From positions 372,001 to 436,000 of the forward strand of contig NZ_CP120737.1 of assembly GCF_029581195.1 (NCBI RefSeq): a stretch of 64,000 bases of DNA. Direction: 5' to 3'. A program made the translations under genes and the position numbers. Below the pieces are notes generated by a model. It saw nothing but the letters and a program-made list of their open reading frames with translations. It was not told the origin of the DNA and did not search any database. Each line of letters starts with the position of its first letter. Position 1 is the stretch's first letter. This DNA comes from Solwaraspora sp. WMMD791 (GTDB lineage Bacteria; Actinomycetota; Actinomycetes; Mycobacteriales; Micromonosporaceae). Below, piece by piece: positions 37,230 through 37,264 of the stretch.

Positions 37230-37264
37230 CTGATCGCGTACGACGTCTCCGATGACGTCCGCCT
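37230..37264 (+). other. Spacer 29, matching a cas2 gene
   Basis: 35 nt near the leader-distal end. Aligned without gaps to cas2 positions 34689-34723, 29 of 35 bases agree. In the cas2 codon phase it encodes [11 protein letters not shown], against [11 protein letters not shown] in this locus. Four of the six mismatches fall on third codon positions or the truncated last codon, as expected for a homologous gene. Confidence 0.85.

Follow-up and report, generated by a model that had tools for sequence, protein, structure and literature searches.

A spacer in a type I-G CRISPR array that very probably derives from a cas2 gene other than the resident one

The CRISPR array of an actinobacterial type I-G system contains, at its trailer (old) end, a spacer that very probably derives from a cas2 gene other than the one now standing beside it. 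What can be observed directly in the DNA is the array, a match of this spacer to the resident cas2, the codon phase of that match, a PAM-like triplet in front of it and a pattern of cas2 alleles across the family. From these we consider it probable that the spacer was captured in a PAM-directed way from a type I-G cas2, most likely one in the chromosomal I-G locus of a relative. Capture from foreign DNA is favoured over capture from the cell's own cas2 before a change of allele.

The type I-G locus and its cas2-like spacer

The window, by which we mean the whole 64,000-nt stretch of DNA analysed, holds a complete operon adjoining the array. Profile matches identify cas7g, csb2, cas3g, cas8g, a cas4-cas1 fusion and cas2, every element by which type I-G was recognised here, and the subtype named in an earlier, sequence-only reading of this DNA agrees with all of them. 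The features are as follows.

26465..27700, + strand: cas7g (csb1); PF09617 E 1.1e-36, and TIGR02570
27697..29223, + strand: csb2, the type I-G cas5-cas6 fusion; TIGR02165 E 6.6e-59
29226..32018, + strand: cas3g, profile-matched part, start approximate; TIGR02621 E 3.5e-205, PADLOC Cas3g E 2.5e-260
31940..33064, + strand: cas8g open reading frame, profile match from near 32042; PADLOC Cas8g E 4.2e-95, NF049934 below its cut-off
33085..34665, + strand: cas4-cas1 fusion, profile-matched part of the open reading frame; PADLOC Cas1g E 5.7e-237, NF049935 below its cut-off
34662..34964, + strand: cas2, 100 aa, intact, bearing the homologue of the spacer's source site; PF09827, TIGR01573 and PADLOC Cas2g
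34686..34688, + strand: PAM-like TAC, a Tyr codon, directly 5' of the cas2 site; read from the sequence, with TA also 5' of three other accepted protospacers
34689..34723, + strand: cas2 site matching spacer 29; 29/35 by ungapped comparison
34965..35172, + strand: leader region, from cas2 to repeat 1; similar sequence before five sister arrays, by eye
35173..37378, + strand: I-G CRISPR array, 31 repeats of 36 nt and 30 spacers; array cut
37153..37193, + strand: spacer 28; 31/34 agreement of its first 34 nt with an endonuclease VII-like gene in the sister genome G006, TAG preceding
37230..37264, + strand: spacer 29, very probably cas2-derived; array cut, codon reading, spacer ranking and family cas2 comparison

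Repeats 1-26 are identical, and repeats 27-31, at the trailer end, bear 1, 1, 1, 5 and 2 mismatches. The cas2 side is taken as the leader and the far end as the old trailer end, because similar sequence precedes the first repeat in five sister arrays. Spacer 28 was cut at 41 nt and its final 7 nt copy the start of the CRISPR repeat, so that the true spacer is probably 34 nt long. Spacers 17 (36364-36401) and 19 (36511-36548) are identical, with spacer 18 between them. Just upstream of cas7g lies a large HerA-like ATPase gene (23193-26369), whose best PADLOC match is mad8, and a gene for an XRE/DUF5753 regulator flanks the CRISPR region in two copies (20261-21088 and 37768-38595). Elsewhere in the same genome (C1:798000-817900, L142), near 807 kb, two arrays of 28-nt repeats with a 61-base period stand on either side of weak Cas1 matches; reading the subtype from the repeat, these are probably type I-E. 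Their spacers gave weak matches to the window, the best at E 0.001.

Spacer 29 of 30 occupies exactly 37230-37264. Its best ungapped match in the window outside the array lies on the + strand within cas2, where 29 of 35 bases agree and the alignment is in codon phase, the 11-residue peptides being [11 protein letters not shown] in the spacer and [11 protein letters not shown] in the gene. A recount and a fresh peptide reading thus bear out what had been claimed of this match. The other 29 spacers, 30-42 nt long, reach at most 26 matching bases elsewhere in the window on either strand, and among 1,500 shuffled versions of spacer 29 the highest score at any place in the window was 25. A harsher control drew on real sequence: of 1,445 35-mers taken from the window, 47 match some other place in it at 29/35 or better. 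When the own genome was searched with the whole array as query (E <= 0.001; 40 of 220 candidates scored), cas2 was the only non-array site covering spacer 29 (30 bases, 93%).

The six mismatches fall at spacer bases 1, 3, 4, 21, 24 and 35, three of them (3, 21 and 24) at third codon positions and three (1, 4 and 35) at other positions. The earlier statement that mismatches sit mostly at third positions is therefore too strong for the resident gene. Against the cas2 of the sister genome G002, four of five mismatches are synonymous, a pattern to be expected if a coding gene has diverged and not if a spacer has decayed. The accompanying claim, that the source was a homologous cas2 and not the present gene, is very probably right, with the exact source not found.

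Spacer ranking, cas2 alleles and PAM evidence

The match was ranked against 1,325 spacers (1,306 distinct) from 42 arrays. These lie in 39 loci chosen for a related cas2 gene and not by subtype, and the arrays of Caldilineaceae and other distant organisms may not be I-G. Against the fetched loci spacer 29 gave the best match of all (E 4e-7), followed by 1.6e-5, with the best reversed-spacer control at 3.7e-5. At E <= 1e-3, 42 spacers had matches, against 16 in the reversed control. With blastx spacer 29 again came first (E 3.6e-7), and Arg-rich low-complexity peptides followed close behind (1.8e-6), a weak separation. Seven next-best matches were read by codon frame as candidates for a second anti-cas spacer, and were judged to be GC-rich chance.

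In the first array cut, 67 spacers were lost because their lengths fell outside 25-50 nt; a mis-cut repeat in L049 and L060 accounts for 61 of these. The arrays in L045, L050, L058 and L072 had been missed. Six loci were re-cut, which kept 163 of 169 spacers (1 of 6 in L072; those of L049 and L060 were in part already counted). Their best match, at E 9e-4, is between the first spacer of L045 (Actinomyces) and the cas2 of L047, also an Actinomyces, at 8164-8198, in frame and at 26/35. It is possible that this is a second cas2-derived spacer, or else chance; it was not accepted as cas2-derived, being no better than chance matches, without the TA triplet and at 20/35 in its own cas2. A further 156 spacers yielded no cas match among the ten best listed, and another 49, compared with the fetched genus loci only, yielded none among the 20 best listed. 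The single-spacer arrays of G004 gave no convincing match (E 0.011 and 0.032). No spacer is common to this array and either the five sister arrays or the 205 further spacers.

Relatives of cas2 at E 1e-12 occur in 22 of 354 family genomes, and genome_contigs supplied 34 further loci. The site was tabulated for 18 family genes, six of the 24 matches being omitted (L023-L026 and L028 as weak and distant, L027 as a cas2 fragment). All 18 have a homologous site, which agrees with spacer 29 at 26-30 of 35 bases; the best value, 30/35, is found in the sister genomes G001 and G002 and in G341. Four genes (G001, G002, G316, G324) encode exactly the peptide of the spacer. At codons 10-11 the spacer and 14 of the 18 genes have LI, and the resident has IV. 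In the first eight bases, thirteen genes differ from the spacer at one position and two genes at two; three mismatches, together with IV, occur in the resident (G000) and in G003 and G005, while G001 and G002 keep LI. The last base of the spacer is T, against G in 18/18 family sites.

The flanking PAM, which the sequence-only reading had singled out for inspection, came out in favour of the match. Immediately ahead of the cas2 site, 17 of the 18 family genes have TAC or TAT and the remaining one has TTC; in the resident cas2, TAC/TAT stands at 14 of 596 positions, two strands together. Counting cas2, all four accepted protospacers of the genus arrays lie behind TA. The other three belong to a spacer of G005 (TAC; 34/34, in a gene present in G003 and G006), to a spacer of G002 (TAC; 33/35, in a phage tape-measure gene in G003) and to spacer 28, given above. 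Family-genome matches of spacers 6, 9 and 24 that had no TA triplet were taken as chance and left out of this count by choice. One of these, the unrelated spacer 6, reaches 30/35 in the 354 family genomes without a TA triplet, so that descent could not be proved by identity alone when the database is large. Against phage records, neither the own array (best E 0.2) nor two long arrays of relatives gave a protospacer usable for the PAM. A Bifidobacterium I-G system has the PAM 5'-TAT-3' (PMC12915315), other I-G work gives TTN (PMC9638904), and a further I-G study used a GAA-marked prespacer (PMC10504553). The PAM of the genus I-G arrays appears to be TAN, as judged from few protospacers and with other I-G systems differing (TTN, GAA).

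The source of the spacer and competing explanations

With up to 3 mismatches, the 35-mer was found only in its own array, both in 7 genus genomes and in the 354 family genomes. Viral contigs contained neither an exact 33-mer nor a degenerate core, and a degenerate core had no match in genome_contigs. The exact match in an I-G cas2 that the sequence-only reading had proposed as a check was not obtained in these collections. A plasmid blast match near the spacer (84.6%, E 0.02) was set aside as chance. What had looked like a gene continuing beyond the final repeat of L110 was judged by eye to be common trailer.

That reading had also suggested that the target might be carried, for example, on a plasmid or phage, and cas genes do occur on plasmids, where 82 records contain a cas2-like match. 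All 82, however, are below 60% identity, phage records hold one weak and distant cas2 match, and nothing related to the cas2 family alignment is encoded in any of 45 candidate viral stretches; a search of phage, plasmid and viral collections thus turned up no close I-G cas2. An anti-cas spacer raised against a phage- or plasmid-borne I-G system is accordingly improbable, and an I-G locus on a relative's chromosome is the likelier source. Captures from relatives' chromosomes do occur in the genus, since the last spacer of the second array of G005 matches exactly a chromosomal gene of G003 and G006 (in G005 the search found the spacer alone and no copy of the gene). A homologue of that gene, with DUF6346 in its N-terminal part, lies in the window at 18823-19902; its site at 19708-19741 matches the G005 spacer at 33/34, behind CAC instead of TAC. 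The I-G loci themselves come and go, for a cas2 match at E 1e-12 is absent from both G004 and G006, and G004 retains two single-spacer arrays with the genus I-G repeat (L106, L107). In G002 a second array of 54 repeats (L065, 8265-12564) follows a 3' fragment of cas2 and a leader, about 20 kb from the intact cas2, an apparent duplication of cas2 end, leader and array.

It is also possible, if rather unlikely, that the cell captured the spacer from its own ancestral cas2 of the LI form, and that the resident gene was later changed or replaced (IV), which ended the self-targeting. The allele distribution fits, in that G001 and G002 keep LI while G000, G003 and G005 have IV with three seed mismatches. 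The Cas2 proteins of G000 and G001 differ at only two residues, both within the seed, and 7 of the 13 base differences between these genes lie inside the 38-bp PAM and protospacer (Fisher p 0.0003). Against the cas4-1 and cas2 background this clustering is moderate, as 52 of 1,828 windows are equally divergent, and it appears in one of four sister comparisons (the other three gave p 1, 0.09 and 0.25); on this ground the idea that the seed changes in the resident cas2 arose as an escape was not adopted. Moreover, G003 and G005 have IV, yet a search of their genomes that allowed up to 3 mismatches did not turn up spacer 29, and the spacer still differs at five bases from the LI alleles of G001 and G002.

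Coincidence, with the spacer coming from an unrelated gene such as one of a phage, would be in keeping with the unrelated match of spacer 6 noted above and with 19-base matches to terminase genes in mycobacteriophage records (E 0.4), which we took as chance. It is very improbable given a match that lies in the same window and in frame, leaves a conserved Cas2 motif intact, stands behind a PAM-like triplet and ranks first of 1,325 spacers. Slighter still are the chances of a regulatory use, in which a crRNA with a partial match would bind the resident cas2, leave it uncut and adjust its expression in the manner of CreA-type guides. A match of 29/35 with the PAM-like TAC kept would suit such a role. 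CreA/CreR-type regulatory guides are crRNA-like and have their seed match at a promoter; the site of spacer 29, however, is inside the cas2 coding region and its seed is mismatched at three of the first eight bases, and the spacer was not found in sister genomes.

Under the preferred reading, DNA from an I-G locus on the chromosome of a related actinomycete would have entered an ancestor of this cell, and 35 bp from the 5' part of its cas2 would have been taken up in the ordinary PAM-directed way. Transcribed with the array, spacer 29 would guide the I-G Cascade and Cas3g to an incoming cas2 that encodes the spacer's peptide behind TAC or TAT, an action against a rival I-G system. The resident cas2 should be spared, because three of the first eight target bases differ although TAC is kept. 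It is plausible that spacer 29 would at present guard against foreign cas genes in this way and leave the resident allele untouched. A wider proposal is speculative and, in our judgement, doubtful: that a live I-G system immunises itself against rival cas2 alleles, its own allele being protected in the seed, and that codons 10-11 (LI/IV) serve as a self/non-self tag under anti-cas selection, which would limit I-G exchange among sister species.

Comparison with known systems

The case suggests that related cells receive each other's I-G loci frequently enough to leave a record, and with the inferred TAN PAM and the pairs of cas2 alleles a plasmid assay could put the question directly to the test. 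Turgeman-Grott et al. reportedly described in 2019 haloarchaeal spacers from the chromosomes of related species. A relative's chromosome is the likely source here too; the present case differs in that it concerns a bacterial type I-G system and a cas gene as target, and in that it is known from sequence, not from observed DNA transfer.

The type I-G system of Bifidobacterium lactis shares with the present one the cas4-cas1 fusion and a modal spacer length of 35; its PAM is TAT, while that of the present system, apparently TAN, comes from protospacers alone (PMC12915315). Self-targeting spacers also resemble a host gene (PMC6990116). A full or near-full host match behind a PAM, which marks them, was not found for spacer 29 in the own-genome search described above; TAC is present, and the resemblance to the host gene extends to 29/35, three mismatches falling among bases 1-8.

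The closest parallel is offered by the orphan I-F arrays of Escherichia coli, whose spacers against I-F cas genes are thought to exclude such systems (Touchon and Rocha 2010, PMC2886076; Almendros et al. 2016, as described in PMC8616872). Their targets are cas genes of the array's own subtype, and the same may be true here, where 18 of 18 close cas2 relatives agree with the spacer at 26-30/35 and its last base fits in 0 of 18. As these sources describe them, the E. coli arrays are orphans in hosts without cognate cas genes and contain several anti-cas spacers. The literature searched, which included few subscription journals, yielded these two papers alone on cas-targeting spacers and no report of such a spacer for type I-G or in an array beside an intact system. 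The present array shares with the E. coli arrays a spacer that very probably comes from a cas gene and is itself no orphan, since its operon is complete; unlike them, it has one anti-cas spacer, at the old end, and stands in an actinobacterium beside an intact type I-G operon with a seed-diverged cas2. CRISPR-against-CRISPR targeting, known from orphan arrays of type I-F, would in that case also occur in type I-G and in an array that adjoins an intact system.
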